A program made the position numbers and the translations under genes. The notes beneath the pieces were generated by a model, which had not been told where the DNA came from, searched no databases, and saw nothing but the letters and a program-made list of their open reading frames with translations. Below, one piece after another: positions 7,864-49,035 of a stretch of 64,000 nucleotides of DNA. The stretch's first letter is position 1. Each line of letters begins with the position of its first letter. Source of the DNA: Bacteroidota bacterium (GTDB lineage Bacteria > Bacteroidota > Bacteroidia > Chitinophagales > Saprospiraceae); the NCBI GenBank assembly GCA_024642705.1, contig JAHEAQ010000002.1, forward strand, positions 27,124 through 91,123. Direction: 5' to 3'.

Positions 7864-9588
7864 TCATTTTGAAACTTGACTTGTATATTTTTCTTTTGTT
7901 TTTTCATCTTGAGAATCAGTTTTATGATCAATAAAATTAACAGCTTGTTGCACACTCATGAAAAAATTAGATTCGCCAATTTTTTGTGTAAATCCACCTT
8001 TTTTCATCGCATCTCTTACAGGTCCCTTCACTCCAGTGAAAAATATTTCCCTACCTTGAGATCTCTGTTCTAAAATTAAATCTTCCAAAGTATGCAATGC
8101 ACTGCTATCAAGATTATTAATACTTTCAGAGTTAATAATAATGTTTTTTAATGCGTCACCTTTTTTCTCAATCCATTCATCCAATGTATTTTTAAAAAAA
8201 TCAGTATTCGCGAAATATAATTCGGCATCGAATCTTAAAATTAGTTTGTCTGAAGTTATAATTACTTCAGGAAATCTTTCTTGATTTCTGTAAAAATGCG
8301 AGCCAGGAACGTTCCCCAATTCTGCAACATGAGGGCTTGACGACCTATATATAATCATTGCTAGTGACAAGATAACACCAATTAATATGCCTTCTTCAAT
8401 GCCTAATATTAATGTGGAAAGGAAAGTAACTATTAACATCCAGAAATCTGATCGATTTGCAACCCACAGATATAATGGCTCTTTAAAATCAATAAGTCCA
8501 AATACAGCAACCATAATAACGGAAGCTAAAATGGTTTGTGGCAAAAAATAAAATAAAGGAGTAAAAAATAATAATGTTAATAGGATTAATCCAGCTGAAA
8601 TAATGCCGGCCATTCCAGTTTTTGCTCCAGCTTGATCATTGACTGCTGTTCTCGAGAATCCACCAGTTACTGGAAATGATTGAAAAAATGATCCTCCAAT
8701 ATTAGCAATTCCCAATCCAATGAGCTCTTGATTTGGAATTAACTTATAATTTTTATGTTTAGCTTGAATGGCTTTAGCTACTGCAATGCTTTCCATAAAA
8801 CTGACCAAAGAAATCGTTATAGCTGCTGGGATCAAGTTTTTCAGATTTGCGACTTCAAATGAAGGTGCTGAAAAACTAGGCAAGCCGCTAGGAATGGTTC
8901 CTACTATTTTAACACCCATTTCATCTAATCCCCAAAAATACACTGTTAATATTCCAAACAATACTGCTAGCAAAGGACCAGGAATGGATTTATTTATTTT
9001 TTTGATGCCAATGATTAAAAAAATTCCAACCATTCCAATTCCAAGAGTCAACCAATGAATTTCAGCATATTGACTTATTGCATCAATCAATATTTTATGA
9101 ATAGGATTACTACCAGAAATACTTATGCCTAACAAATGTTTCAGTTGACTTAGGCCAATTATTAAGGCAGCTGCTGAAGTAAAACCACTAATTACAGGAT
9201 GTGATAAAAAGTTAACAAGGAAGCCTAATTTTAGGACACCCAGAAATAATTGAATAAAGCCAACCATGAATGCAAGTGTAATGGTAAGTACAATATAAGT
9301 TTCAGTACCACTTTCTGCCAAAACGCCAACACTTGCAGCTGTTAACAAAGAAACCATTGCCACTGGTCCAACGGCTAATTGTCTTGAAGTTCCAAAAATA
9401 GAATATAGGATAATTGGAATGGTGGAAGCATATAGTCCATATATGGGTGGAAGTCCAGCTATCATAGCGTAAGCCATGCCTTGAGGAATGAGCATAACGC
9501 CCACAGTCAATCCTGCTGATATATCACCTTTAAGGGATTCTTTATTATACTTGGATAACCATTCTATAATTGGAATATAGGATTTCAT
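7864..9588 (-). CDS. SulP/SLC26-family anion transporter with STAS domain
   Basis: A 574-residue SulP transporter. The membrane domain (about residues 15-415) contains the family signature region around AGLTVGVMLIPQGMAYAMIAGLPPIYGLYAS. A cytoplasmic STAS domain at about 440-555 includes NSESINNLDSSALHTLEDL. Substrates in the family are sulfate, bicarbonate and other anions. The surrounding sulfur-oxidation genes make sulfate or sulfite movement the natural guess, but substrate and direction are inference. The gene is 95 bases upstream of the rhodanese lipoprotein; no Crp/Fnr palindrome was seen in the 167-base gap before it. Confidence 0.92.
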   Translation of the reverse strand: MKSYIPIIEWLSKYNKESLKGDISAGLTVGVMLIPQGMAYAMIAGLPPIYGLYASTIPIILYSIFGTSRQLAVGPVAMVSLLTAASVGVLAESGTETYIVLTITLAFMVGFIQLFLGVLKLGFLVNFLSHPVISGFTSAAALIIGLSQLKHLLGISISGSNPIHKILIDAISQYAEIHWLTLGIGMVGIFLIIGIKKINKSIPGPLLAVLFGILTVYFWGLDEMGVKIVGTIPSGLPSFSAPSFEVANLKNLIPAAITISLVSFMESIAVAKAIQAKHKNYKLIPNQELIGLGIANIGGSFFQSFPVTGGFSRTAVNDQAGAKTGMAGIISAGLILLTLLFFTPLFYFLPQTILASVIMVAVFGLIDFKEPLYLWVANRSDFWMLIVTFLSTLILGIEEGILIGVILSLAMIIYRSSSPHVAELGNVPGSHFYRNQERFPEVIITSDKLILRFDAELYFANTDFFKNTLDEWIEKKGDALKNIIINSESINNLDSSALHTLEDLILEQRSQGREIFFTGVKGPVRDAMKKGGFTQKIGESNFFMSVQQAVNFIDHKTDSQDEKTKEKYTSQVSK

Positions 9589-9755
9589 TGTTATCTCAAA
9601 TTTACTTTACCAAATTCTATCAATTATTTTTGCTTCTTCTATAGGTAGTGATTTTAAAATTTCATCTTCTTACCTAGGCGATTGTATTTTGAAAAACATT
9701 TTAATGTAGGAGGATTTTAAATTTTACCTTATTGCATTAAATTAATTTCAAGAAT

Positions 9756-35588: not shown

Positions 35589-36557
35589 CTATTCCTTAGA
35601 TCTATTGGAAAGATATTCTTTTGCAAAATAGGTAATGATTAAGTTAGCACCGGCTCTCTTGAAACTGAGCAATAATTCATGAACAACATTTTCTTCAATT
35701 ATCCATCCATTTTGAGCGGCTGCTTTAATCATAGAATACTCACCACTAACATTATATGCAACTAAAGGTATGCTAAATGAATTGCTAAGGTTGGAAATGA
35801 TATCCATGTAACTCATTGCTGGTTTAACCATTATAAAATCTGCACCTTGCTCAATATCTAATTTAGTTTCAATTATGGCTTCATCACTATTTCCTGGATC
35901 CATTTGATAAGTAGACCGATCTCCTGATGTTGGTGCCGAATCAGCTGCTTCACGAAAAGGTCCATAAAAAGATGAAAAATATTTTGCTGAATAAGCCATT
36001 ATGGAAACTTCTTCATGCCCCTTTTTATCCAAATTGGTTCTAATGGCCTCTACTTGACCGTCCATCATCGCACTAGGAGCGACTGTATCAATGCCAGCTT
36101 TAGCTAATGAAGCAGCCATTTTTGATAAAAGATCCAATGATCTATCATTGTCAATTTTGCCTTCTCTAATATAGCCACAATGTCCATGGTCGGTATAACT
36201 GCACACACAAACATCTGCAATTAACCAAACATCGGGAAACTTTGATTTTATAGCTTTTGCTGCCAATTGAACAATATTATTGGAGTCATAAGCTGATGAA
36301 GCCTTTTCATCTTTATAATCAGGAGTGCCAAATAAGATGAAAGCTCGAATGCCCAAAGAAATGCATTCTTCAATCTCCATCAATACATTGTCAATGCTCA
36401 GTTTAAAGATATTCGGCATCGAAGAAATGGGAATTTTCTGATTTTCGCCTGAAATCAAAAACAATGGGAATATGAGATCATGGGCATGCACAAAATTTTC
36501 CCTAGTATAATTTCGAATCGTTTTGGATGTCCTTAATCTTCGGGGTCTACGAATCAT
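35589..36557 (-). CDS. hemB: Porphobilinogen synthase (delta-aminolevulinate dehydratase)
   Basis: 322 residues, condensing two 5-aminolevulinate molecules to porphobilinogen. The ATG at 36557 (MIRRPRRLR) is the family's usual start; a longer frame upstream would overlap hemD more. A zinc-type metal site DVCVCSYTDHGHCG is present. Both active-site Lys are seen, in YSAKYFSSFYGP and the Schiff-base segment DFIMVKPAMSYMD. It overlaps hemD by 11 bases at the distal end of the sulfite-reductase/sirohaem operon, supplying precursor for sirohaem and haem. Confidence 0.96.
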   Translation of the reverse strand: MIRRPRRLRTSKTIRNYTRENFVHAHDLIFPLFLISGENQKIPISSMPNIFKLSIDNVLMEIEECISLGIRAFILFGTPDYKDEKASSAYDSNNIVQLAAKAIKSKFPDVWLIADVCVCSYTDHGHCGYIREGKIDNDRSLDLLSKMAASLAKAGIDTVAPSAMMDGQVEAIRTNLDKKGHEEVSIMAYSAKYFSSFYGPFREAADSAPTSGDRSTYQMDPGNSDEAIIETKLDIEQGADFIMVKPAMSYMDIISNLSNSFSIPLVAYNVSGEYSMIKAAAQNGWIIEENVVHELLLSFKRAGANLIITYFAKEYLSNRSKE

Positions 36558-37275
36558 GTTGTAGTGTTTGCACAATTTTAACAATCATAGAATCAAAAGT
36601 ATGTTTATCTCCTATAATTGGCGCACTGTGGGTATAATTTTGAATTGTTAAAAAAGTAGTGGTTCCAAGGGCAGAATAATGGATTTCTCCAGGAATATTT
36701 AGTTTGATAGAACTAATTTGATCAATGTAAGAATCAACTGCTGAAGGACTACAAAAACTGATAACATCTATTTTGTTTTCAAATAATCCTTCCCATTCAT
36801 CAATGTTATGTAATTTTTGAATAGTCTTGTAAACTTCAATTTGCAGAAATTTATGCGCTTTGGATTTTAATACATTTATCGATGTTGCATTACTCAGGTT
36901 TCCTCCAATGTAACAGGCATTTTCTGATGAAGAAATTGGAATTTCTTGGGCAAGGCAAAAAGAAGTTGAAACGGAAGGCAAAAATTCCACTTTGTAGCCA
37001 TAATTTTCTACAATATTTGCAGTCTTTGGTCCTACACAAGCTATCTTTTTATCTTTTGATAGGTCACTTTGTTCGAAAAAAGATTTTACTCCATTCTGCG
37101 AAGTGAAAATAATCCAATCAAAATCATCATTAATTTGATCAAGAATTTCTGGCCTTATTTTTTGATATTCGAATTCAATAAGAGGAAACTCAATCCAATC
37201 AATATTGGGAAATTTTGCATTCAGTTCATGAAGATCATTTTCTTTTCTTGTTAAAACAACATAGTTTTTCTTCAT
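36547..37275 (-). CDS. hemD: Uroporphyrinogen-III synthase
   Basis: A 242-residue HemD family protein: a two-lobed fold with weak sequence conservation. Recognisable blocks are DWIIFTSQNGVKSFFEQ, KIACVGPKTANIVENYGYKVEFLP and VISFCSPSAVDSYI. It closes hydroxymethylbilane to uroporphyrinogen III, the branch point to haem and sirohaem. It is 52 bases downstream of the ferredoxin gene and overlaps hemB, so it belongs to the same transcription unit. hemC is not in the window. Confidence 0.88.
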   Translation of the reverse strand: MKKNYVVLTRKENDLHELNAKFPNIDWIEFPLIEFEYQKIRPEILDQINDDFDWIIFTSQNGVKSFFEQSDLSKDKKIACVGPKTANIVENYGYKVEFLPSVSTSFCLAQEIPISSSENACYIGGNLSNATSINVLKSKAHKFLQIEVYKTIQKLHNIDEWEGLFENKIDVISFCSPSAVDSYIDQISSIKLNIPGEIHYSALGTTTFLTIQNYTHSAPIIGDKHTFDSMIVKIVQTLQHDS

Positions 37276-37327
37276 AACAATTTCATTTTTGAACGAATCC
37301 TTCTAAAAGAATAGGAATATTTATTTA

Positions 37328-37648
37328 TCAACCTAAATTGGCTAATCTAACTTTCAAGCCATTAATCTCTTCTGTGATTTTTATTTGACACCCTAATCGA
37401 CTGTTATCTTGGATAAAAAGGACCTGGTCAAGCATAATTTCTTCATCTTCTGAAGGCTCATGTAGATTGTGTTCACTTTCTACATACATATGGCAACTTG
37501 CACAAAGAGCCATTCCACCGCAAGTTCCTTCTACTGGAAGTTCTGAAGCTTTACAAACTTCCATTAAATTCAAATCTATTTCTAGAGGGATTTCAATTTC
37601 GTGTTCAATGCCTTCTCTATCTGTAACGTAAATCGTTATTTCTTCCAT
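37328..37648 (-). CDS. 2Fe-2S ferredoxin
   Basis: A 106-residue adrenodoxin/plant-type ferredoxin. The cluster ligands follow the pattern C-x5-C-x2-C in GTCGGMALCASCHMYV, with the fourth Cys in SRLGCQI. It lies 9 bases after the ferredoxin reductase gene in the sulfate-assimilation operon. It is the obvious electron carrier between that reductase and the sulfite reductase, which has no flavin partner here. Partnership is inferred from order. Confidence 0.92.
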   Translation of the reverse strand: MEEITIYVTDREGIEHEIEIPLEIDLNLMEVCKASELPVEGTCGGMALCASCHMYVESEHNLHEPSEDEEIMLDQVLFIQDNSRLGCQIKITEEINGLKVRLANLG

Positions 37649-37657
37649 TTAATGTTT

Positions 37658-38677
37658 CTATTCAAATCCGTGGACTCCTTGAACTGTAGTATATTTAAAA
37701 CTTAATTTTTTATCAGGAAACATGTATTTAAATGCAGATTGTACAGCTAAAGTTCCTTCATGAAAACCACACAATATTAATTTTAGTTTTCCTGGATACG
37801 AATTAATATCACCAATTGCATATATACCAGGAATGTTTGTTGAATAATCTTCTGTATTTACGTCAATAGCATTCTTGTCAATATTCAATCCCCAATCAGC
37901 TAAAGGTCCTAATTTTGGAGATAATCCAAATAAAGGTATAAAGTTGTCTGCATCCATTTTTATTTCACCTTCCGTTTTGTGCTTTAATACTATTCCATTC
38001 AACACGCCATTGCCCACAAGTTGAAGAGCTTCAGTATCTGTCAACAAATTCACTTTTCCTTTTTTTGCAAGATTTGCAACTTTTTCGGCACTATCCAAAG
38101 CTCCTCTAAAACTGCTACTTCGATGTACCAATGTAACTTTTTCAGCAATATCTGACAAAAAAATGGTCCAGTCGAGTGCAGAGTCACCACCTCCAGCAAT
38201 TACTACTTTCTTATTTCTGTAAACTTCAGGATCCCGAATGATGTAATCTACACCTTTATCTTCAAATTTCTCTAAATTTTCCAAAACTGGCTTTCTTGGT
38301 TCAAAACAACCAAGTCCTGCTGCTATTGCAATTGCTTTTGCTTTAATTTCAGTGCCACGTGACGATTTCACTACAAATGATCCGTTTTCTAATTTTTCGA
38401 AAGACTCTATTCTTTCACCAAGCGTAAAAGTTGGCTTGAAAGGTTCGATTTGAGCTAACAAATTGTCAATTAATTCACCCGCGAGAATTGAAGGATAACC
38501 AGGGATATCATAAATAGGTTTTTTTGGATATATTTCAGCACATTGCCCTCCAGCAATTGGTAAGGCATCTACCAAATGACATCTCATTTTCAACAGACCA
38601 GCTTCAAAAACAGTAAACAATCCAACAGGACCTGCTCCAATAATCAATAAGTCTGTATCAATATTATTTTGATTCAT
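37658..38677 (-). CDS. Ferredoxin--NADP+ reductase, thioredoxin reductase-like type
   Basis: A 339-residue flavoprotein with an N-terminal FAD site (IIGAGPVGLF), an NAD(P) site (VVIAGGGDSALDW) and a late FAD motif (GIYAIGDINSYPGK). It lacks the CxxC of thioredoxin reductases, which places it in the YumC/TrxR-like FNR group. It overlaps cysH by 14 bases and precedes the ferredoxin gene. Together they would carry electrons from NADPH to ferredoxin for sulfite reduction. Confidence 0.9.
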   Translation of the reverse strand: MNQNNIDTDLLIIGAGPVGLFTVFEAGLLKMRCHLVDALPIAGGQCAEIYPKKPIYDIPGYPSILAGELIDNLLAQIEPFKPTFTLGERIESFEKLENGSFVVKSSRGTEIKAKAIAIAAGLGCFEPRKPVLENLEKFEDKGVDYIIRDPEVYRNKKVVIAGGGDSALDWTIFLSDIAEKVTLVHRSSSFRGALDSAEKVANLAKKGKVNLLTDTEALQLVGNGVLNGIVLKHKTEGEIKMDADNFIPLFGLSPKLGPLADWGLNIDKNAIDVNTEDYSTNIPGIYAIGDINSYPGKLKLILCGFHEGTLAVQSAFKYMFPDKKLSFKYTTVQGVHGFE

Positions 38678-39413
38678 TCAATTCTTTTTTGTTATTAAAA
38701 TAGTGCGTATGTAATCCGCATTCAGTTTTTTCAGAATTAGCCCACCTTCCTGATCTTCCTTCACCTTTTATTGTACAATGTGTGCAACCAACAGAACCAT
38801 AACCAAAATCAGCAAGAGGATGTTGTGGCAATTTATTAAAACTTGCCTGGTAAAGTAATTCCCCTTCGTCAATATCCAACAATGGATGAAACTTATACAA
38901 ATCACCATGAGGAGAAAAAATTTCCAGGTTTGTTCTAAAGACAGTCTGATTTCCTAATAATCCAGAAACCCAGATTTTCTTATTTTTCTTCACTTTGTCC
39001 AAAGGAGCAATCTTGTTAATAGCACAGCACATTTTAGGATGGTCTTTCCACCACTCTTCTTCCTCAGTCAATGCATGTTCTTGATCTTGAGGTGTAAGTT
39101 CTATTAATTCTAATTCAAATCTTTCAGCCAATTCATTTTTATATCTTAAAGTTTCTTCAAACAGAAAACCAGTATTAATAAAATGAATTTTTTGTTTTTT
39201 ATTCACCTTACTCAAAAGAAATAATAAATAGGCGGAATTTGTTCCAAAAGAAGAAGTAAATAAAATTTCTTCTGGATTAAAAATTTCATAAAGCCTCTCA
39301 AGTCGCTGAATTGGAGAAAGCATTTTAAATGCATTATTGAATTCATCCACAGGAAAATCTGTAGTACTTATATTATTTGCGACTGCCGCTGGACTGTTAT
39401 CTTTATAACTCAT
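38664..39413 (-). CDS. cysH: Phosphoadenylyl/adenylyl-sulfate reductase
   Basis: 249 residues. The PAPS-reductase fold has the SFGTNSAYLLFLLSKV nucleotide loop, and the C-terminal catalytic Cys is in ECGLHTH. Two Cys pairs, MCCAIN and GCTHC, are the 4Fe-4S ligands found in APS-type reductases and absent from the E. coli PAPS enzyme. Reduction of APS to sulfite is therefore the likely reaction. ATP sulfurylase (cysDN or sat) is not in this window. It is flanked by the sirohaem synthase and ferredoxin reductase genes. Confidence 0.93.
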   Translation of the reverse strand: MSYKDNSPAAVANNISTTDFPVDEFNNAFKMLSPIQRLERLYEIFNPEEILFTSSFGTNSAYLLFLLSKVNKKQKIHFINTGFLFEETLRYKNELAERFELELIELTPQDQEHALTEEEEWWKDHPKMCCAINKIAPLDKVKKNKKIWVSGLLGNQTVFRTNLEIFSPHGDLYKFHPLLDIDEGELLYQASFNKLPQHPLADFGYGSVGCTHCTIKGEGRSGRWANSEKTECGLHTHYFNNKKELNESK

Positions 39414-39427
39414 GCAAAATTGACGAT

Positions 39428-40030
39428 TTAATTTTTAATTTCTGTAATCTCGATCATACTTTTGGTAAGATCATTCAATATTTTTACTTTCTCTTCAAAA
39501 TTATGCTTCAACTTCTTTCTGAAAAAATGCAGATTCTGTAATAACGAATTGGTATCTTCAGGAAATACTTCTTCAAAAACTTGTCTTATTCTTTTGGCTA
39601 AAGTCGGAGATTTTCCATTTGTTGAAATAGCAATTTTTAGATTCCCTTTAGTTACTATGGATCCCAAGTAAAAATCACAAAGATCTGGAGTGTCTGCGAC
39701 ATTTATAAGCTTTCCTGCAGCTTTTGCTTGTGCCCAAACTTCATGATTAAGGGTTTTGAGGTTTGTTGCAGCAATGATAATATCATACCCACTAATGTCT
39801 TCTTTTTGAAACTGTTTTTGTTCTACAATAAAACTGGTTTCATAATAGCCTTCTACAATAGCCCATATTTTACTATTTATTTCTGGGGCAACTATTTTAA
39901 TATGAGTAATAGGACTGCTTTTCAAAAGAAAGAATAATTTCTCATAGGCCACTTCTCCAGCCCCAACAATTAACACTTTAAGTTTATCAAGCCTGAAAAA
40001 CACTGGAAACAACTGATTTTTTTGTTGCAT
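39428..40030 (-). CDS. Precorrin-2 dehydrogenase / sirohydrochlorin ferrochelatase
   Basis: A 200-residue protein like the N-terminal half of CysG (Met8p/SirC type). It has an NAD site VLIVGAGEVAYEK, IIAATNLKTLNHE and the SISTNGKSPTLAKRIRQ block. It oxidises precorrin-2 to sirohydrochlorin and probably inserts iron to give sirohaem. Together with the preceding cobA gene, which its start overlaps by 44 bases, it replaces a fused CysG. The product is the cofactor of the sulfite reductase in the same operon. Confidence 0.9.
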   Translation of the reverse strand: MQQKNQLFPVFFRLDKLKVLIVGAGEVAYEKLFFLLKSSPITHIKIVAPEINSKIWAIVEGYYETSFIVEQKQFQKEDISGYDIIIAATNLKTLNHEVWAQAKAAGKLINVADTPDLCDFYLGSIVTKGNLKIAISTNGKSPTLAKRIRQVFEEVFPEDTNSLLQNLHFFRKKLKHNFEEKVKILNDLTKSMIEITEIKN

Positions 40031-40769
40031 TTTCTTGGATTTTGGTATGTTTTAAATATGCATTTACAACTTGCCCTATATAAATTATCGCAGGAGTAGA
40101 AATGCCTGATTGCTTCACTTTTTGTTCAATAGAATTAATTTCACCAAAAACAGCTTTTTGATGAGCTAATGTTCCATTTTGAAATATGGCAATTCCTATT
40201 TTGCCTTTATTTTGCTTTTTATAGGTTTGAACTATTTCTTTTAATTTTCCAAACCCCATTAGAATTATGACAGTCCCTTCTAATTTCGAAGCTTGTATTA
40301 AGTCTTCACTTAAATTTCCGTCACTAGCGACGCCTGTTACAACATGGAAACTTTTACTGAGATTTCTTGAGGTAATTGCCAGGCCATTCCAAGCGCTTAC
40401 AGCTGTAGAGCTTGATAATCCTGGAATAATTTCTACTGGAATTTTGGATTTCTCAGCATAAACCAATTCCTCAAATCCTCTGCCAAAAACAAAAGGGTCT
40501 CCTCCTTTGAGTCGGACAACATGACCTAACTTAGCATACTCTACCAATTTTTTATTGATTTCTTCTTGTGAAGCATAATGCTTGCCGGCTCGTTTTCCAA
40601 CATAAATTTGAATAGCATGCGGAGGTGCATAGCCAATTAAATCTGGGTGAACCAATGCATCATAAAGTATTACATCAGCTGATTGAATTGCTTTTAATCC
40701 TTTTAAAGTAATTAACTCAGGATCCCCAGGCCCAGCTCCCACCAATGTTATTTTTGATTTCCCTATCAT
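39987..40769 (-). CDS. cobA: Uroporphyrinogen-III C-methyltransferase
   Basis: A 260-residue SUMT with the signature VGAGPGDPELITLKG, then VRLKGGDPFVFGRG, GLSSSTAVSAWNGLAIT and the late IYIGQVV. It makes precorrin-2 from uroporphyrinogen III with SAM. It begins two bases after the sulfite reductase stop, so translation is probably coupled, and overlaps the next gene. It is the CysG C-terminal half as a stand-alone protein. Confidence 0.95.
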   Translation of the reverse strand: MIGKSKITLVGAGPGDPELITLKGLKAIQSADVILYDALVHPDLIGYAPPHAIQIYVGKRAGKHYASQEEINKKLVEYAKLGHVVRLKGGDPFVFGRGFEELVYAEKSKIPVEIIPGLSSSTAVSAWNGLAITSRNLSKSFHVVTGVASDGNLSEDLIQASKLEGTVIILMGFGKLKEIVQTYKKQNKGKIGIAIFQNGTLAHQKAVFGEINSIEQKVKQSGISTPAIIYIGQVVNAYLKHTKIQENATKKSVVSSVFQA

Positions 40770-40771
40770 GG

Positions 40772-42904
40772 TTAGGCATTGTAGTATGAAGCAGTTACTA
40801 AAGCGTCCTCCAGCTTTGAATTTTCTTTCCTTAGTATTCTTTTGATATTTTTATTGAATTCAGATGCATCTTTCAAATACTGTTGTACAAATGACTGATT
40901 TGGATTCCCATTTTTCATTCTTAAAACATATTCAGGAAAAGCAGCTTTGAATTGAAATAATGTGTTGGTGTGAAAATGGGTATCGAAATCTTCTAATATT
41001 TTAATATGAGTATTACATTTTACATCTATTGAAAGCAACACAGCTTTTGCTCCAACTATAAATGAAGTATAACTGTAATACAAGGACTCATCAAATTCTA
41101 GCAGTTCATATTTTTGTTGTGCAAGTTCCAATTTTTCATCTGCATCTTTTACAATTGCAGAAAGCATATCAAAAGCAACCCCGGCGCATTCGCCAACACC
41201 AATTTCTTGAACATATTCAGAATCTTGTCCCCAATCTAAAAAATCAGAGTCAACTAAATTTTCTTTTTGGCCTAATTCCTTCAACAAATCGTAGAAATAT
41301 TTCTTTCCATTTCGCACCGTATAACTGGTAAAATGCTCGTCTATTTCTCCATTGATTTTATAATCTTCGAGCAGCAAAGTAATTGCGATTAGGATTCTTT
41401 TTGTTGGAATTTTGATTATTTTTTCTGCTATATAGGCTTTGTGGCCGACCATTCCTCCTCCTAAAACTATCTGAATAGCTGGAAGAATCCTATCATCTAC
41501 TTTGATCGAAGAGCCATGAAATCCAATACTAGCTGCCATGTGCTGTCCACAAGCATTCATACAACCACTTATTTTTATGCTTATTTCGTTGTTTGTGATA
41601 AAGTCTGGATGATTGGCTTTAATATGATTTTCTATTTCTTCTGCGAGATTTGTGGAGTTTGTAACTCCAAGATTGCAAGTATCTGTACCAGGACAAGCAG
41701 TTACATCGACGATCGTTTCAGCTCCAAAATCAGCAAGATCAATAGATTTTAGTTCTTCATAAATTGCTTTCAAATCTTCAACAATAGCAAATCTGAGCAA
41801 AATTCCTTGGTTGACTGTAAATCTAATATCATCAGCAAAATATTTTTGGACTATAGTAGAAAGAAATCTTGCCTTATCTGAGGAGAGATCTCCAAGTCTA
41901 ACTTTTATATTCACAGAATAATATCCGGAATTCCGAATTGATTTTACATTTGTTTTTTTCCATAATTCGAAACTTTCATCGCTTGATGGTTTAATTTTAG
42001 TAAATGTCGCAGACTTAATCGGTTTTGGAGCTTCCCAAATGTTTTCATTTATTGGAATAGATTGAGAAGGCAAACTTTTCAATTCTTCATCTATAAGATC
42101 AAGGAATTTTTGTTCTCCAAAACTTTTTAGTAAGAATTTCATGCGTGCTTTAAATCTCTTTTCACGCTCACCATAGCGATCAAAAATTCTAATGGTTGCT
42201 TCCATGAATGGAATAATCTCATCAGCTGGAATGAATTCGCTTACAGTAAAAGCTTCCATGGCTTGGGCTCCAAGTCCACCTGCAAGTAGAAGCTTGAAGC
42301 CTTTCTGACCATTTACCAAACGAGGAATAAAACCAAAATCATGAAAATATGTAAAGGCGGAGTCCGTGTCACTTGAGGAAAAGGCAATTTTTATTTTCCG
42401 ACCCATTTCCTGACAAATTGGGTTTCTTAGAAAATAGTTATAAACTGCAACTACGTAAGGTGTTATGTCAAATAGCTCATCTGAATCAATTCCAGCATTT
42501 GAAGAAGCGGTGATGTTTCGGACAGTATTTCCGCATGCTTCTCTTGCATTCATTCCGACATCGGCCATTAATTCCCAAACTTTAGGTGAATTATTTAGCT
42601 TGACATAATGAAATTGTATGTTTTGCCTAGTTGTGATGTGTAAATTGCCGGTAGCATAGGCATCCGAAATGTCAGCTAACCGATACAATTGTTTAGCGGT
42701 AACAAAGCCGAAGGGAATTTTTGTTCTAAACATATGCACTCCCAATTGTCTTTGACCATAAACACCTCTAGTTAAGCGATAATGTTTGAATTTGTCTTCA
42801 TTAATCAATCCTTTTTTAAATAGGTCAATTTTGAAGTTTAATTCCTCCACATCAGCTTTAGCTTCGGCTTTGAATTGTTCTTGGGTCCTACTTAATATTG
42901 TCAT
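40772..42904 (-). CDS. Ferredoxin-type assimilatory sulfite reductase with C-terminal extension
   Basis: 710 residues from the ATG at 42904 (MTILSRTQEQF); codons upstream run into the leader terminator and are rejected. Two nitrite/sulfite reductase repeats are present. The sirohaem/4Fe-4S ligands are TACPGTDTCN and SGCMNACGQH, and an RxxxRQNIQFHY-type substrate loop is seen as TTRQNIQFHYV. Residues of about 560-710 form a helical extension resembling the HEPN-type tail of Bacteroidota homologues; its role is unknown. cysH, sirohaem genes and an operon-encoded ferredoxin/reductase favour sulfite over nitrite as substrate. A Cys-codon leader peptide and terminator precede it. Confidence 0.9.
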   Translation of the reverse strand: MTILSRTQEQFKAEAKADVEELNFKIDLFKKGLINEDKFKHYRLTRGVYGQRQLGVHMFRTKIPFGFVTAKQLYRLADISDAYATGNLHITTRQNIQFHYVKLNNSPKVWELMADVGMNAREACGNTVRNITASSNAGIDSDELFDITPYVVAVYNYFLRNPICQEMGRKIKIAFSSSDTDSAFTYFHDFGFIPRLVNGQKGFKLLLAGGLGAQAMEAFTVSEFIPADEIIPFMEATIRIFDRYGEREKRFKARMKFLLKSFGEQKFLDLIDEELKSLPSQSIPINENIWEAPKPIKSATFTKIKPSSDESFELWKKTNVKSIRNSGYYSVNIKVRLGDLSSDKARFLSTIVQKYFADDIRFTVNQGILLRFAIVEDLKAIYEELKSIDLADFGAETIVDVTACPGTDTCNLGVTNSTNLAEEIENHIKANHPDFITNNEISIKISGCMNACGQHMAASIGFHGSSIKVDDRILPAIQIVLGGGMVGHKAYIAEKIIKIPTKRILIAITLLLEDYKINGEIDEHFTSYTVRNGKKYFYDLLKELGQKENLVDSDFLDWGQDSEYVQEIGVGECAGVAFDMLSAIVKDADEKLELAQQKYELLEFDESLYYSYTSFIVGAKAVLLSIDVKCNTHIKILEDFDTHFHTNTLFQFKAAFPEYVLRMKNGNPNQSFVQQYLKDASEFNKNIKRILRKENSKLEDALVTASYYNA

Positions 42905-42939
42905 ATAACTATTTTTTATAATTTGATATTTTGGGTATA

Positions 42940-42980
42940 AAAAAATCCCTTCAAAACATTTCATCTTGAAGGGATTTTTT
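42940..42980 (-). terminator. Leader terminator (attenuator) of the sulfite reductase operon
   Basis: On the minus strand a 15-bp perfect stem, AAAAAATCCCTTCAA / TTGAAGGGATTTTTT, with an 11-base loop ends in seven T. It lies 22 bases after the stop codon of the Cys-rich leader peptide and 35 bases before the sulfite reductase ATG. It would stop transcription before the operon, so it must be regulated or leaky. Confidence 0.9.
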
Positions 42981-43026
42981 ATGAATCTATATTTTAATTC
43001 ATTTAATGTTCCACGCAAGATGAAAT
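42958..43026 (-). promoter_or_regulatory. Putative antiterminator pairing of a cysteine attenuator
   Basis: The leader segment ATTTCATCTTG (43026 to 43016, minus strand, codons 19-22 of the leader peptide) is the exact complement of CAAGATGAAAT (42968 to 42958). The latter covers the top three bases of the terminator 5' arm and eight of its 11 loop bases. A ribosome stalled at the Cys codons just upstream would leave the first segment free to pair and hinder terminator formation; a ribosome that reads on would cover it. Only three stem pairs compete directly, so the mechanism needs testing. Confidence 0.6.
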
Positions 43027-43080
43027 TTTATTCATACAACAGCAGCAGCACATCATTTCAGAAGCTGTATTTGGGAACAT
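43003..43080 (-). CDS. Cysteine-rich leader peptide of the sulfite reductase operon
   Basis: A 25-codon frame read from the sequence: ATG at 43080, TAA at 43003-43005. Codons 11-15 are five consecutive Cys codons (TGC TGC TGC TGT TGT, 43050 to 43036), with a sixth Cys at codon 22. The middle reads MMCCCCCMNK. Met9 or Met10 could also start it. It is followed by a perfect intrinsic terminator and then genes for cysteine-sulfur assimilation. That is the layout of amino-acid leader peptides whose ribosome speed reports on charged tRNA, here tRNA-Cys. The peptide itself probably has no other function. Confidence 0.82.
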   Translation of the reverse strand: MFPNTASEMMCCCCCMNKISSCVEH

Positions 43081-43222
43081 ATAAATGTTTGTGTTTTTCA
43101 ATTGATTTTTATTTAATTAATGAACTAGTTTCTTGTAATTATGATACAAAACTGTGCCATTATTTTAAAATATCCAAATAAATTATGACATTTTAACAAA
43201 ATATTTAAATCTCATAAATGAC

Positions 43223-43246
43223 CATATGTTCATATGTTATTATGTT
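43223..43246. promoter_or_regulatory. Three tandem 8-base repeats upstream of the cysteine leader
   Basis: CATATGTT CATATGTT ATTATGTT stand head to tail about 145 bases upstream of the leader peptide start. The first two are identical and create the palindromic 12-mer ATATGTTCATAT, whose complement is also found at 130-141 before the MBL-rhodanese operon. This suits a regulator binding site near the operon promoter; the regulator is unknown. Confidence 0.4.
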
Positions 43247-43506
43247 GGATATCAATTATTTATGATTTTTTATTGTTTTTTCATAAACTTGAAAGTGCCG
43301 GTAATATTAAGGTTTTAGGCTGAACCTGAGGTTTGAAATTAATGAATACGAATATAATAATTAGATTGCTCTAAATATAAAATTAGATTGTATTAAAAAT
43401 ATATTTTTTATTTTTTATTTTTTTTAAAGAAATTGACTGCTATCTGATGAAAAAAATAAAGAAACAGTTCAAAGAATAATTAATTATTCAATGTGCTTTG
43501 ATGATA
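43247..43506. other. Intergenic region
   Basis: Very AT-rich sequence between the sulfite reductase control region and the end of the LOG gene. Runs of T (about 43400-43430) are present. No gene, RNA or convincing terminator was seen. Confidence 0.5.
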
Positions 43507-44628
43507 TTAAGCTTTTAATGGTGGATTTTGCTCAATAAAACGGACAGCTTCATCTGGCTCATTGGTCAAGAATAACAATTTTTGGTAGTCTTGACCTTTC
43601 GAAAGTTGTTTCAAAGTAGGAAAAATGAAAGTATTGATTTCATAACGATCAGTTCCCAAAAAAACCATTGGGCTTAAATATCCGAAAGTTCCATAATGAT
43701 TTTGTGCAGCGTCCATAAATATTTCTTGTGTGGTACCAGCACTTCCAGGGGCATAAATTATTCCGTGAACACAAATTGCTAGGAGTGTATCTTCTCTAAT
43801 GCTATTTGAAAAATACTTGGCAATATGAGAAGCAAATAAATTGCTAGGTTCATGTCCATAAAACCAGGTGGGTATTGCTAAGCTTTCTTGACCATTAGGA
43901 TATTTTCCTAAAACTTCTAAGGCTGCGTTGGAATAGCCTAAATCTGCATAGTGCGGAGCTTTACTCAATATTTTGATTGCGTTGTCTAATTCTTTGGTCG
44001 ATCTTCCACCAAAATAGGCGCCAAGATTGGTAGCTTCCATAATTCCGGGGCCCCCGCCTGAAGCTACAAAATATCCTTTTTCACACATGCTTTTTGCTGC
44101 ATAAGCTGTCTTTAAATAAAATTCATCATTTCTGTGTGTCCCGTGGCCACCCATAAATCCGATTATTTTTTTTGCATAATTGCCAATATCATCAGGTTCA
44201 ATTAAAGTTCGAAGTGCATTATCAATAGCATGGTCATGAATTCTTTGCCACAATGATTCATTAATATTAGGGTTAAACCTGGTTTTATAAAAATGATTAT
44301 AAATTTGAAAATCTAGAGTGGTATTTTCATTCCCTTTAGTTTCTAATTCTTGCCAAGTATACAAGTTAGATCGATAAGGATTGTAAGGTTGTTCATTGTA
44401 ATAGGGGAGTATTACAGCCCTTGCTTCAAGCAATAATATTTGATCTTTTTCATTCAAAATGCAACCCATAAAAGTAATTGTATTCAATTTGAATTTTGAC
44501 CATTTTATTTTGATAGTACTCAAATCCAAATTTTGAAAAGTATAATTTTCAATAGAATTATCATTTTTCAACAGTATCTCAAATACTTTCTTATCATTTA
44601 TAAGCCTTGGATGGTCAGCAAATTTCAT
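43507..44628 (-). CDS. LOG-family (TIGR00730-like) Rossmann-fold protein
   Basis: A 373-residue protein whose C-terminal 220 residues hold the LOG fold: IIGFMGGHGTHRND, ASGGGPGIMEATNLGAYFGG and APGSAGTTQEIFMDAAQNHYG. The last corresponds to the PGGxGTxxE motif of cytokinin-nucleotide phosphoribohydrolases, with Ser replacing the second Gly and the catalytic Glu kept. The N-terminal 150 residues are an extra domain of unknown function. It probably hydrolyses a nucleotide 5'-monophosphate. It starts one base after the stop of the unknown helical protein gene, so the two are cotranscribed. Confidence 0.82.
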   Translation of the reverse strand: MKFADHPRLINDKKVFEILLKNDNSIENYTFQNLDLSTIKIKWSKFKLNTITFMGCILNEKDQILLLEARAVILPYYNEQPYNPYRSNLYTWQELETKGNENTTLDFQIYNHFYKTRFNPNINESLWQRIHDHAIDNALRTLIEPDDIGNYAKKIIGFMGGHGTHRNDEFYLKTAYAAKSMCEKGYFVASGGGPGIMEATNLGAYFGGRSTKELDNAIKILSKAPHYADLGYSNAALEVLGKYPNGQESLAIPTWFYGHEPSNLFASHIAKYFSNSIREDTLLAICVHGIIYAPGSAGTTQEIFMDAAQNHYGTFGYLSPMVFLGTDRYEINTFIFPTLKQLSKGQDYQKLLFLTNEPDEAVRFIEQNPPLKA

Positions 44629-44629
44629 A

Positions 44630-46063
44630 TTATACTAATTCCTTCATTTTTTCTAATAACCAATTTTTGGAAGCAACACTGTTATTTACTTCAAGTTGAG
44701 TGATCAATTTTGCAATTTTCTTTTTTGAAAATTCAAGTTTTATCATTTTCTCTACAAAACTGTTGAAATTTCCAAAAATCAATTTATGTTGATCTGGAAT
44801 ATTTTTATGCCGAATCAGAAAAATTTTGAATGCATTTACCGAAGAAATGGCTAAATCTTTGTTTTCCTGCTCATAATAAGCAATTATTAACATAAGCTTA
44901 GAATCTAGCGTATATACTAAATCATCAAATTCAACTTCATTCAATAAATCAATTAGGGTGTCATAATCTTTTTTAAACAACGCAACTCTAGCTGAATTGA
45001 ACTTAATAGCGTTGTCCCTGTATTTTAGATTTATCTTTTTAGCGAAAAGTTCAATAAAATCTTCGACCCATTTAATTTCCCCAAGTCTAAGGCCAATTAT
45101 GCATATATTACGAAAAGATGTAGGCGTAATTTCACCGTCGACAAGAAGTACGCCAAGCTCAAGACCTTCATTATAAATATTTAACAATTCATTATTAAAG
45201 CTTTTGTCACCTTTGTTAACTTTTCTGACACAATAATTCAAAGCAGCATCAAATATATGTTTTGCTTCCTGGTCTGGAAATAAAAACAAATTTTTTTGAA
45301 TTAGTTCTTTCAATTTATAGTAATGATCGGGATCTTCAGGTTCAATTGTAGTAAGGTAAATCTGATAGTAAATGCCAATGGTTGGAATATTGAAATATTT
45401 TTTGTTTTTCACCAATTCCACGATGTCGTGAATAAAAAGAAGTTCTATATCATGCTTTACTACATTTTTCCAAGATAACATTGAACAATAATACCTCAAT
45501 TTTTCAGCTATAAAAAAATAATCAAGATTGTCATTTATATCCTGAATATTATAAAATTGGATCTTAGTTTTAGAAGCAGATTTTTTTTCAAATTCACTGG
45601 TAAGGTTGAATCTATGCTTTTCTGCCATATATTGATAAAAATAATAGTTGGCATTTCGCTCAAGATGCCTTTCTGATAATCTCTCAGTGGTCTTGAGTAC
45701 AGAATTATAAAGTTCAGGAAGTTTATTGTCAATTACCGCTTCCAATAAATTGGTTGATTCTTGCAAAGGTTGGGATTTAAATTGCTCAATCGATAAAAAT
45801 TCTTCCAGTAGGCTTAATAAATCTGTGTTAAGTTTCCTGAATTTTGCATCCTTATATTTTTGAGTTGGAAATACATTGTTCCAGATTTGATCCTTTTCAA
45901 TTTCAATGGAGTTATTGTTTTTTATACTTTCTAAATAAAAATCAAATAAATTGGTAATGTTTTCATTCTGATTAAAATATGGAGAGTGAACAAATTTTTT
46001 AAACCTATTCAAATCATAAATACTAAGTCTAGATAGCGCTTTGTGAATCTTTAGATTTTGCAT
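44630..46063 (-). CDS. Conserved-looking helical protein of unknown function
   Basis: 477 residues, soluble and almost entirely helical, with many Lys, Asn, Leu and Ile. The opening LSRLSIYDLNRFKKFVHSPYFNQNE and the later repeated helix pairs suggest a TPR-like superhelix. I know similar long helical proteins in Saprospiria only as hypothetical. There is no signal peptide and no catalytic motif. It is transcribed with the LOG-family gene, which is the only hint about function. Confidence 0.6.
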   Translation of the reverse strand: MQNLKIHKALSRLSIYDLNRFKKFVHSPYFNQNENITNLFDFYLESIKNNNSIEIEKDQIWNNVFPTQKYKDAKFRKLNTDLLSLLEEFLSIEQFKSQPLQESTNLLEAVIDNKLPELYNSVLKTTERLSERHLERNANYYFYQYMAEKHRFNLTSEFEKKSASKTKIQFYNIQDINDNLDYFFIAEKLRYYCSMLSWKNVVKHDIELLFIHDIVELVKNKKYFNIPTIGIYYQIYLTTIEPEDPDHYYKLKELIQKNLFLFPDQEAKHIFDAALNYCVRKVNKGDKSFNNELLNIYNEGLELGVLLVDGEITPTSFRNICIIGLRLGEIKWVEDFIELFAKKINLKYRDNAIKFNSARVALFKKDYDTLIDLLNEVEFDDLVYTLDSKLMLIIAYYEQENKDLAISSVNAFKIFLIRHKNIPDQHKLIFGNFNSFVEKMIKLEFSKKKIAKLITQLEVNNSVASKNWLLEKMKELV

Positions 46064-46566
46064 AAATCCTTTTTTACTTTGAATCCATTTCTGTAACGTC
46101 CAATTTGTCTTTTGTTACTTTTAATTCTCATTCCAGTTAAATTCTTAAGTTAAGCAAATATCTAAAAGTTTTATTTAAAAATGGGTTAGATTAGAAATTG
46201 TGAACTAAATGCAATTTATTTTGGATAAATATATTCTCCTAAAATGCTTGAGTTTACATAGAAATAATATACTTTTTAACTCTGTGATGCGGAGTTATTA
46301 TTTATGGATAAAAATTGAAGCAGATTTAAATTTTTTTATCAAAAAAAATTCAATTTTTTTCAACAATTTTTTATAATATATTAAATATTAAGTTTATATG
46401 TAATCATTTTTTAATCAATTAGTTGATTTGCATTAGTTAAAAAGGTGTGAAAAATTAATGTATCCTAGAAGACAAAATTCATATTATTTATTTTCATATA
46501 TGATAGAATTCTATTTTATTCTTATTATCTTGTGTTCGAATTATAACCAAAATTAATCGCATTCCC
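46064..46566. other. Intergenic region before the dockerin/T9SS gene
   Basis: About 500 bases of AT-rich DNA between divergent genes. There is a weak 6-bp inverted repeat TAACTC/GAGTTA at 46277-46297 and several A and T tracts (46330-46385). Promoters of the two flanking genes are expected. No gene or RNA was seen. Confidence 0.5.
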
Positions 46567-49035
46567 ATGGCAAAAGTGACTTTTAGATCGCTTACACTAG
46601 GATTGGTAGCTTTACTAATGCTCCCTTTCTTTTGTCATGGACAATCCAATCCACAAAAACAATATCGTGATATTATTGACAAAGAATTTCATTATTCTGT
46701 AGTCAATTCTGCTGCTATGCCAACTGTTATTGGAGCACCAAGCAAAGGTATCCTATCATTTGAAGCAGATCCGGTTTCTCCTGATGTGTATCGATTTGAG
46801 TACAAACCAGGAAAAATTGAAGCACAAACTAAGGCTGTGATTGAATATTGGAAAAAAGATGATATAACTGGTGAATTAAAACCAGACTATACTACTTTCT
46901 TTTTCAGAATATCAAGGTCTTTGATTAGTTGCCAAGATGATAGAAGATTTATTTCTAAAAATCAATCCATTAACGGTATTCAAGTTTTAGAAAATGATTC
47001 CAGAACAGATGGACCTTTAGTTATTGACGGGATTGCCTATTCTGAAGGTGGAATTGCAACAATTAATGGTGAGACAATCGATTTCACACCTTTCCCTGAT
47101 TTTGTAGGAGATGCATTTGTTTATTATTCGGTTAGAGATACAAAAAATAAAGGTGGCACTGGATTACTTAAAATAAAAGTAATAGATGCAACTAGTGTTG
47201 CTAATTATGGAACAATTGATATCATTAGCTATGGGGGAATTCCTGTTGAGTTAGATTTGCCGTTTGATGGATTTCAAGTATCCGGTGAGGTTCAATATGG
47301 AAGTTTTGAATCTTATGGTGGTATTCAACAATTTATTCCAAGTGCCAATATTAATGCTTCTGAAACTTTCCAGATAGTAAAGAATAATATTGTTAGGGAT
47401 GTAAATGTTCAAATAATTAAAAAAGAACGATCTAACAGTTGGGTCATTGATGATATAGTTTATACATCTCAGGGAACTGAAGTTAATTTTGATGTAGACC
47501 AGAATGATTTGAAACACAATCAAACGATCACAAGTGCTTCACCTGAATTAATTCCAAATGCAGAGTCTGGGGTTTATTCTTACCTTCCTGAACCATATTT
47601 TCTAGGTAATAAGACATTTGAATATACTGTATTTAATGGTTTTGCTTCAGAAACCGGCAAGATATTCCTGAAAGTTAGTAATTTTTTCCCTCAGATTCAA
47701 TACGATTACAACTTTACTACCGTAGGGAATTCGGTTTTAGTCATTGATTACAAAATACCAATAAGTAATTTCAGTTTTGAATTAATAAGTGGACCTTCAA
47801 ATGGAGTTATTAACATAAATTCTGGAAATTCAACTATTGAAGTAGGATGTTCACAAATAGCTGGTAATAATTTAGTTTTATATCAGCCTGACTATAATTT
47901 TATAGGATCAGATGCATTTACGCTTAATTATTGTGTGGATGGGCTATGCCAAGAAGTGGAAGTGAAAGTGCAAGTAGTGCAAAACAATCTTGGCGATTGT
48001 GAATGTTATACAGGTTGCGTTTGGGCTGGAGATGCAAATAATGATGGGCTAGTGAATGTGGTAGATTTATTGTCCATGGCATATTCTTTGGGGGCATCTG
48101 GCGCACCTTCAGATTGGAATGGAGGCAGTGGCTGGATAGGACGAAAAACAGAAGATTGGAATGAATATCCTGTAAATGGAGCTAATCCAAAATTCGCAGA
48201 TGCTGACGGAAATGGAATTGTAGAGAAAGTAGATTTTAATGCAATTATAGAAAATTATGACAAAAACCATTCTTTGGTGCCACCTCAATTTTTAGATAAT
48301 AAGTCATATCCATTTACTCTAAAACCAGCGCAAGATACAATTTATATTGGGGATAGAATTGAATTTGAAATCGGAATAGGAAATGAAGCACATCCAGTAT
48401 TGGATGCTCATGGATTTGCTTTTTCGTTGGGAATGCCTGGTAATCTTGTCGATTCAAGTTCTGTTAATTTAGAATACTACACTAATTCTTGGTTAGCAAT
48501 TGATGAAGCAGTTTACGGTATGTATAAACAACTATATGATGGTTGGTTAGAAACTTCTGTTGCCAGACTAAGTTCTTTACCGAAAAGTGGAAAGGGACCA
48601 ATTGGCAAACTAGATTTTATAGTAGAAGAAGATGTAGTCGGCGGATTTAGGGTATCTGATGGTATTATTCCATTGAAAATATATATTAAGGAAGGTCAAG
48701 TTTTGTCATCTGATGGCCAGTTTGGAGCTTTGGAAGGGACTGAAGCTACTGTCTATTTAAATATTAAGAAGGAGAAATCAAGCAATGCTAAAGAGTCAAG
48801 ATTAATAGCATTCCCAAATCCTGCTACGGATATTCTGAATCTTCATATGAATGGCGGTCATGACATTCTTTCCTATGAAATGTATGATATGATGGGAAAA
48901 TTAGTAACGAAAGAAACTAACTTGGAGACAAGAAATACCTCAATTCATACTAGTACTTATACAAATGGAATTTATTTCTTGAAAGTGCAAACTACCTTTG
49001 GCCCGATCATAACTAAAGTTGAAATTTTAAAATAA
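46567..49035 (+). CDS. Secreted cadherin/dockerin-like protein with T9SS type A sorting domain
   Basis: An 822-residue exported protein; the signal peptide ends near FFCHGQ (residue 26). Residues of about 30-480 are repeated Ig/cadherin-like beta domains with phrases such as IDFTPFPDFVGDAFVYYSVRD and GSDAFTLNYCVDG. At about 485-565 lie two EF-hand-like dockerin segments, GDANNDGLVNVVDLLSMAY and DADGNGIVEKVDFNAII. A cohesin-like or beta domain follows, then the type A C-terminal signal FPNPATDILNLH to NGIYFLKV. It is probably a calcium-stabilised surface or matrix protein. No enzyme motif is visible. Confidence 0.83.
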   Translation: MAKVTFRSLTLGLVALLMLPFFCHGQSNPQKQYRDIIDKEFHYSVVNSAAMPTVIGAPSKGILSFEADPVSPDVYRFEYKPGKIEAQTKAVIEYWKKDDITGELKPDYTTFFFRISRSLISCQDDRRFISKNQSINGIQVLENDSRTDGPLVIDGIAYSEGGIATINGETIDFTPFPDFVGDAFVYYSVRDTKNKGGTGLLKIKVIDATSVANYGTIDIISYGGIPVELDLPFDGFQVSGEVQYGSFESYGGIQQFIPSANINASETFQIVKNNIVRDVNVQIIKKERSNSWVIDDIVYTSQGTEVNFDVDQNDLKHNQTITSASPELIPNAESGVYSYLPEPYFLGNKTFEYTVFNGFASETGKIFLKVSNFFPQIQYDYNFTTVGNSVLVIDYKIPISNFSFELISGPSNGVININSGNSTIEVGCSQIAGNNLVLYQPDYNFIGSDAFTLNYCVDGLCQEVEVKVQVVQNNLGDCECYTGCVWAGDANNDGLVNVVDLLSMAYSLGASGAPSDWNGGSGWIGRKTEDWNEYPVNGANPKFADADGNGIVEKVDFNAIIENYDKNHSLVPPQFLDNKSYPFTLKPAQDTIYIGDRIEFEIGIGNEAHPVLDAHGFAFSLGMPGNLVDSSSVNLEYYTNSWLAIDEAVYGMYKQLYDGWLETSVARLSSLPKSGKGPIGKLDFIVEEDVVGGFRVSDGIIPLKIYIKEGQVLSSDGQFGALEGTEATVYLNIKKEKSSNAKESRLIAFPNPATDILNLHMNGGHDILSYEMYDMMGKLVTKETNLETRNTSIHTSTYTNGIYFLKVQTTFGPIITKVEILK

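Follow-up and report, generated by a model that had tools for sequence, protein, structure and literature searches.

This analysis deals with a stretch of 64,000 nt (positions 27,124 to 91,123 of contig JAHEAQ010000002.1; here called the window) from a Bacteroidota bacterium of the family Saprospiraceae, and within it with the region upstream of an operon that begins with a gene of the siroheme sulfite/nitrite reductase family. This region contains a short open reading frame (ORF) with a run of five Cys codons, which is followed by an intrinsic terminator. With a probability of about 0.9, the element is a ribosome-mediated transcription attenuator that would sense charged tRNA-Cys. The reading is based on the leader ORF, its Cys run, the terminator, a pairing that excludes the terminator, the conservation of these features, their spacing, and their joint absence from a part of the relatives. 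The leader, the Cys run, the 15-bp terminator, the spacings and an 11-base complementarity had been described before in a sequence-only reading, and all of them were confirmed base for base. The interpretation as a cysteine attenuator, which had been proposed on the same occasion, is now supported by the comparison with relatives (leaders in 54 of 91, terminators, pairing with the own terminator, and spacing). Beyond that earlier description, the comparison revealed leaders in tandem, their occurrence in further families, and cysM-like and cysH members.

The leader region of the window

All elements are located on the minus strand, and their positions are listed in Table 1. An alternative in-frame start codon (TTG at 43101) would extend the leader to 32 codons. 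A sixth Cys codon is found at 43017-43015. The distance from the leader stop codon to the hairpin is 22 nt, and the distance from the hairpin to the ATG of the reductase gene (42904) is 35 nt. The hairpin arms comprise 42980-42966 and 42954-42940, the loop comprises 42965-42955, and 6 of the 15 base pairs of the stem are formed between an A-tract and the U-tract. The segment 43026-43016 is perfectly complementary to 42968-42958 over 11 nt. In silico folding with RNAfold yielded −20.5 kcal/mol for the terminator (42980-42938) and −19.4 kcal/mol for the rival antiterminator fold. The latter is independent of the 3′ arm and should therefore be able to form before the terminator. The pairing of the leader segment was equalled by none of 200 dinucleotide shuffles, and the own terminator had rank 0 for this leader, being outscored by none of the 86 terminators of the comparative set described below. 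As the segment starts 9 nt past the Cys run, stalls on the earlier Cys codons would leave it wholly free.

The features that characterize an attenuator are present, i.e., a cluster of codons for the pathway product in a short ORF, a terminator between the leader and the gene, and, judged from pairing and geometry, a mutually exclusive antiterminator. For the proposed mechanism, we infer transcription start, leader translation, stalling, termination, read-through and the cysteine response from the sequence. RNA polymerase would start upstream, closely followed by a ribosome translating the 25-codon leader. With ample Cys-tRNA, the ribosome would pass the five Cys codons and proceed to the stop codon, where, given the upstream reach of a ribosome, it would cover most of 43026-43016. 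With this segment masked, the terminator at 42980-42940 would form and transcription would stop. When Cys-tRNA is short, the ribosome would halt in the Cys run and 43026-43016 would stay free. The free segment could then pair with the emerging 5′ arm and loop of the terminator, and the polymerase would enter the sulfite reductase/siroheme/cysH operon, the output of which would be sulfide for cysteine.

A possible promoter of the Bacteroidota type was found upstream of the leader. It is weak, and it matches 9 of 10 positions of the consensus. Of 52 first leaders, 20 had a motif of equal score upstream, versus 58 of 520 shuffles. A scan for sigma-70 promoters was discarded, as the 10 sites found were near the number in shuffled sequences (mean 6.3, standard deviation (sd) 2.2). 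An Rfam search of positions 36000-47000 gave no family match, and its four hits were each below the respective gathering score. The poly-Cys pattern matched 14 times at 7 places in the genome of the window, including this locus; the six other places were rejected by eye, as they were other frames of genes or lacked the layout of leader and terminator.

Conservation of leader, terminator and pairing in relatives

For the comparison, 110 reductase loci were taken, namely the top 80 from a single pattern-based scan and the 30 best family matches, the latter from a search of 150 genomes in which the reductase gene was present in 54. They comprised 95 distinct loci, and 91 were left after dropping four with less than 400 nt upstream; near relatives are favored in this set. 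A strong leader was defined as a start-to-stop ORF with at least four consecutive Cys codons within 500 nt. Such a leader was present in 54 of the 91 loci, and 36 of the 91 had two leaders. The same criterion yielded no ORF on the other strand (0/91), none on either strand of the stretch 590-1100 nt upstream (0/91 each), and none in shuffled sequences (0/1820). A weaker Cys-rich leader, with at least three Cys in eight residues, was found in 13 of the remaining 37 loci versus 1 of 91 in antisense. One of the 13 (L027) was taken for a chance hit and is treated as leader-less in the tree and in the terminator counts below. Apart from their Cys codons, the peptides of the strong leaders are mostly dissimilar. 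Both Cys codons are used in the runs, with totals of 333 TGT and 172 TGC over 86 leaders. This mixed usage indicates that the amino acid, and not the DNA, is kept.

A hairpin with a T-run was found after 87 of 90 leaders; the terminator of L016 is included in this number, but it was a wrong pick and was left out of the pairing analyses. A folding energy of −12 kcal/mol or lower was predicted for 86 of the 90 leaders versus 19 of 780 random places. The distance between leader stop codon and hairpin has a median of 26 nt (interquartile range (IQR) 23-31 nt). The pairing of the leader segment with the 5′ arm and loop of its own terminator had a mean score of 18.5, compared with 13.2 for permuted partners (z = 18, 0/20000; n = 86), and the duplex energies were −13.8 and −8.7, respectively (n = 86). 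The own terminator was in the top tenth for 65 of the 86 leaders. A dinucleotide-shuffle test also resulted in 18.5 versus 13.2, with p < 0.05 for 51 of 86 leaders.

The segment starts at a median distance of 14 nt from the (main) Cys run (IQR 11-16.8 nt), and in 74 of the 86 cases it starts 8-20 nt past the run, compared with 43.2% of 1684 swapped pairs. The position of its end relative to the leader stop codon scatters more (sd 11.7 versus 6.3), and the segment can lie ahead of the stop codon, across it, or past it, depending on the locus. The segment thus starts approximately at the edge of a ribosome paused on the last codons of the run, and therefore the geometry fits the sensing of a stall.

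Leader and terminator were also absent together. A terminator (−10 or better) within 160 nt of the gene was present in 49 of 54 loci with a strong leader and in 12 of 12 with a weak leader, compared with 1 of 25 leader-less loci. The single exception is L078, in which an ORF resembling a leader contains two Cys codons side by side. The sequence-only reading had named as refuting outcome a terminator that is kept without Cys codons, and this was not seen. On a tree of 90 of the 91 reductase rows, which was calculated with a quick method and carries a long-branch warning, leader versus none required 5 changes. The 25 leader-less rows consist of 11 in a Neolewinella/Lewinella clade, 8 in a Roseivirga clade (one of them labelled Cytophagales), 4 of Sinomicrobium, L038, and L078. 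Whole clades are devoid of both leader and terminator (Neolewinella/Lewinella and Roseivirga; e.g., L008, L009, L019, L025, L044, L047).

Among the matches listed, the nearest named relatives are Portibacter lacus and P. marinus, with 74-75% protein identity. Two further genomes have the genus code of the window genome, one with the P. marinus locus and the other with the P. lacus leader peptide. All three genomes of the genus have a single leader. Inspection by eye of the other two (L002, L003) showed conservation of both the Cys run and the terminator, but not of most of the peptide. An alignment across relatives had been suggested before as a test. The Cys run, the terminator and the complementarity are indeed kept; clean compensatory double changes were not seen in the three species of the genus.

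The operon, tandem leaders and other genes

Table 1. Features of the leader region and the downstream operon in the window
Feature	Position	Strand	Remarks
Possible Bacteroidota-type promoter	43147-43178	minus	TTTG-N20-CAGTTTTG; weak; 66 nt 5′ of leader ATG
Leader peptide ORF	43003-43080	minus	25 codons, ATG 43080, TAA 43005-43003; peptide MFPNTASEMMCCCCCMNKISSCVEH
Cys run	43036-43050	minus	TGC TGC TGC TGT TGT; candidate sensor of tRNA-Cys charging
Candidate antiterminator segment	43016-43026	minus	ATTTCATCTTG; starts 9 nt past Cys run
Target of the antiterminator segment	42958-42968	minus	CAAGATGAAAT; in terminator 5′ arm and loop
Intrinsic terminator hairpin	42940-42980	minus	perfect 15-bp stem, 11-nt loop, 3′ arm into U-tract
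Siroheme sulfite/nitrite reductase family gene	40772-42904	minus	first structural gene; Pfam NIR_SIR and NIR_SIR_ferr
cobA, uroporphyrinogen-III methyltransferase	39987-40769	minus
CysG N-terminal-domain type gene	39428-40030	minus
cysH	38664-39413	minus
Thioredoxin-reductase-like flavoprotein	37658-38677	minus
2Fe-2S ferredoxin	37328-37648	minus

The nearest NCBIfam model of the reductase is NirA-like, with a score under the curated cut-off. From the gene context the enzyme is likely a sulfite reductase: cobA, the CysG-type gene, cysH, and the flavoprotein and ferredoxin genes lie downstream, which makes sulfite the likely substrate. The downstream genes (37328-40769) are all on one strand and are tightly spaced or overlapping. 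The flavoprotein and the 2Fe-2S ferredoxin (37328-38677) might form a dedicated electron chain. The region 35589-37275 contains a gene resembling uroporphyrinogen-III synthase (below cut-offs) and an ORF resembling HemB (read by eye). As these two lie on the strand of the ferredoxin gene and are separated from it by 52 nt, the attenuated unit may reach into tetrapyrrole synthesis.

Both terminators were found in 34 of the 36 loci with tandem leaders. The first leader preferred its own terminator in 26 of these 34 loci (with 4 ties), and the second leader in 27. From the first hairpin to the ATG of the second leader the median distance is 32.5 nt, and 29 of 34 loci have a distance of no more than 60 nt. 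This short gap would mostly leave no room for a separate promoter and an untranslated region, and thus the two leaders most likely act in series on one transcript, as far as can be judged from their arrangement. Single versus tandem required 14 changes on the quick tree (leader-bearing rows), and tandem versus all other rows 15 changes, 8 of which were forced by starred branches. The doubled attenuator for the same signal in the relatives would be a novel form, and the element of the window is a single, plain member. If the series connection is real, it would multiply two read-through probabilities, which would tighten the off-state and make the response steeper. The alternation of single and double versions among relatives would be a natural experiment in series-connected attenuation.

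At class level, 85 of the 90 matching genomes outside the family of the window were used together with 20 family loci (five were unused because upstream DNA was lacking or the match was partial or weak). A Cys-rich leader was found in 29 of these 85 loci, which belong to 25 family codes, versus 4 in antisense. Leaders occurred in 14 of the 25 other family codes, in two of them (f3, f21) apparently by chance, and none was found in the other 11. The weak hits L249 and L308 were taken for chance and are nevertheless kept in these counts. A terminator of −10 or better followed 37 of 38 leaders outside the family, the pairing score was 19.7 for the own terminator versus 15.2 (0/10000), and the median start of the segment was 13 nt past the last Cys of the cluster.

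Within the family, a pattern of four Cys codons followed by a terminator of the AGCC..GGCTTTTT type was searched for and matched in 18 of 150 genomes; the reversed pattern gave 0. The 22 distinct matches comprised 17 before the reductase gene, 2 before a cysM-like gene, 2 before cysH (Pfam PAPS_reduct), and 1 inside a gene, which was rejected as chance (L166 was read as a weak chance hit). A narrower pattern had 6 hits in 5 of 395 class genomes, all before the reductase gene (control 0). The cysM-like cysteine synthases at the pattern hits score below the cysM cut-off. At 26 cysM-like loci from 25 of the 150 genomes, a Cys-rich leader was present in 19 and two leaders in 14, versus 3 in antisense; 30 of these leaders had a terminator, and the pairing score was 21.1 for the own terminator versus 15.1 (0/10000). 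The doubled leaders before the cysM-like gene were seen in L219, L221, L223, L224, L226, L228, L229, L230, L232, L233, L237, L239, L240, and L243. At L170 and L185 (the places of L237 and L219), the ORF after the cysM-like gene resembles, by eye, a JAMM-type peptidase, a neighborhood that presumably recalls the mycobacterial cysM-cysO-mec cluster. The genome of the window contains no cysM-like gene of that type at the cut-off used, and none of its 10 PALP-family genes is preceded by a Cys leader.

In a draw from the phylum, which included the own family and class, the pattern matched in 3 of 395 genomes. Two of the matches were rejected because they are antisense to a coding gene. The third is from genome G722 of another class (L364, about 9479-9604, minus strand; the same place as L353). 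It consists of a Cys-rich leader-like ORF (MLLHQSQVISCHCCCCYCRC) followed by a hairpin and a T-run, and the 5′ arm is, by eye, complementary to the stretch that follows the Cys codons. A gene for a TonB-dependent receptor and then one for an amino-acid permease lie downstream, and the element may be a cysteine attenuator that controls uptake genes.

Taken together, it is probable that much of the class, which we take to be the Bacteroidia, has a cysteine attenuator regulon of sulfur assimilation, and that its commonest form in the family of the window is the double attenuator, which has been gained or lost repeatedly and occurs at unrelated operons. With similar confidence, the sulfite reductase operon, cysH, cysM-like genes and perhaps uptake genes can be assigned to the regulon.

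Alternative explanations and known systems

Several results weigh against the attenuator. A generic terminator scan reported nothing at the hairpin of the window; the scan requires a loop of 3-8 nt and an unpaired T-tail, whereas this hairpin has its U-tract base-paired to the A-tract, which explains the miss. An upstream protector pairing (region 1:2) was not found in the window (p = 0.35), so an untranslated leader would be expected to read through; over the 86 leaders, the signal for a protector was weak (mean 14.7 versus 13.3; p < 0.05 in 12/86). The pairing of the segment is imperfectly preserved in the genus of the window (by eye). Among the relatives, the hairpin is missing at 3 of 90 leaders, only 18 of the 86 leaders have their own terminator as the best or tied-best partner out of 86, and 35 of 86 pairings miss p < 0.05. 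A Cys-rich leader is lacking in 24 of the 91 relatives (25 when L027 is set aside). Moreover, cysD was rejected as a member of the regulon, as none of 30 loci had such a leader.

Control might instead be exerted at translation initiation, as in mycobacterial poly-Cys translation attenuators. Translation attenuation is the regulation cited for genes of cysteine metabolism in Mycobacterium smegmatis (PMC13236596, with Canestrari 2020 as the primary paper). However, the hairpin and T-run follow the leader stop codon at a median of 26 nt, the first hairpin of tandem loci precedes the second leader and is thus away from the gene start, and 35 nt separate the hairpin of the window from the gene ATG. 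Translational control is therefore very unlikely indeed. The ribosome might also stall in the Cys run in response to another signal, e.g., by nascent-chain arrest of poly-Cys under metal, oxidant or sulfide stress, and the Cys runs, which reach 11 residues in L083, seem longer than a simple stall requires. However, the Cys pattern can be interrupted (MCMCC, CCCCCRCC, CCPCCCCC) and the flanking residues vary; codon sensing therefore fits better than a fixed arrest peptide, and a different signal seems rather improbable, at odds of about one in twenty in our estimate. A third possibility, that the hairpin simply terminates transcription of the gene farther upstream on the same strand (43507-44628) and that the leader is a chance ORF, is practically negligible: the hairpin is located 526 nt past the end of that gene, the controls contained no Cys-run ORFs, and leader and terminator are missing together.

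The cysteine attenuator would represent an RNA switch for Bacteroidota that is recognizable in raw sequence. A literature search revealed neither a Cys attenuator in Bacteroidota nor a doubled attenuator for one amino acid; the subscription literature was largely outside its scope, so that absence is unproven in both cases. For cysteine, this agrees with the earlier statement that no described Bacteroidota case is known, but suspected cases of leader-peptide attenuation in general have already been reported from the phylum: strong clues exist for amino-acid operons of Flavobacterium psychrophilum (PMC9723704), and leader-peptide-like short ORFs were noted in Bacteroides thetaiotaomicron (PMC7366714). 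F. psychrophilum shares the phylum and the type of operon with the present case, and differs in that its section on attenuation names no cysteine case (PMC9723704). If the mechanism is correct, the sulfur assimilation of a large environmental phylum would be tied to tRNA-Cys charging, and the element would offer a natural test of whether ribosomes closely trail RNA polymerase in Bacteroidota.

The trp, his, leu and thr operons of enteric bacteria contain the classical ribosome-mediated transcription attenuators. The element of the window shares with them a leader ORF with codons for the pathway amino acid, an intrinsic terminator, and a mutually exclusive antiterminator. In contrast, it concerns cysteine and a sulfite-reduction operon of Bacteroidota, the window lacks a clear region-1 protector, and the relatives are often doubled. 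Polycysteine frames had been noted as known from some Actinobacteria, and poly-Cys leader ORFs indeed precede cysteine-metabolism genes in Mycobacterium, Propionibacterium acnes and Bifidobacterium longum (PMC1262725). Cys-codon runs before such genes are common to both, but no conserved terminator hairpins were found for the Mycobacterium leaders (PMC1262725), whereas a terminator is present in the window and after 87 of 90 leaders (including the wrong pick at L016). The mycobacterial type is further characterized by a leaderless leader ORF; on this point, the window shows the possible, weak promoter 66 nt ahead of the leader ATG. A ribosome-mediated attenuator (uORFC-8-2) has been predicted before cysS in Rhodobacterales (PMC8632094). 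It likewise combines a short ORF containing Cys codons with a U-run suiting an intrinsic terminator, but it has two tandem Cys codons in a conserved stem and belongs to a cysteinyl-tRNA synthetase gene of Alphaproteobacteria (PMC8632094), whereas the gene downstream in the window is of the NIR_SIR type and the nearest named relatives are from Portibacter. With respect to the doubled leaders, the tandem attenuators for ATP and proline of Salmonella mgtCBR, termed a singular example (PMC3641672), also have two short ORFs per leader, each in an attenuation switch, but they respond to two separate signals, while the tandem relatives described here have two Cys leaders. Induction of ermB by erythromycin is reported to need two leader peptides, ermBL and ermBL2 (PMC8274638), and thus combines two leader peptides with one signal; it is, however, translational attenuation of a resistance gene, in contrast to the putative serial terminators that would sense an amino acid here.

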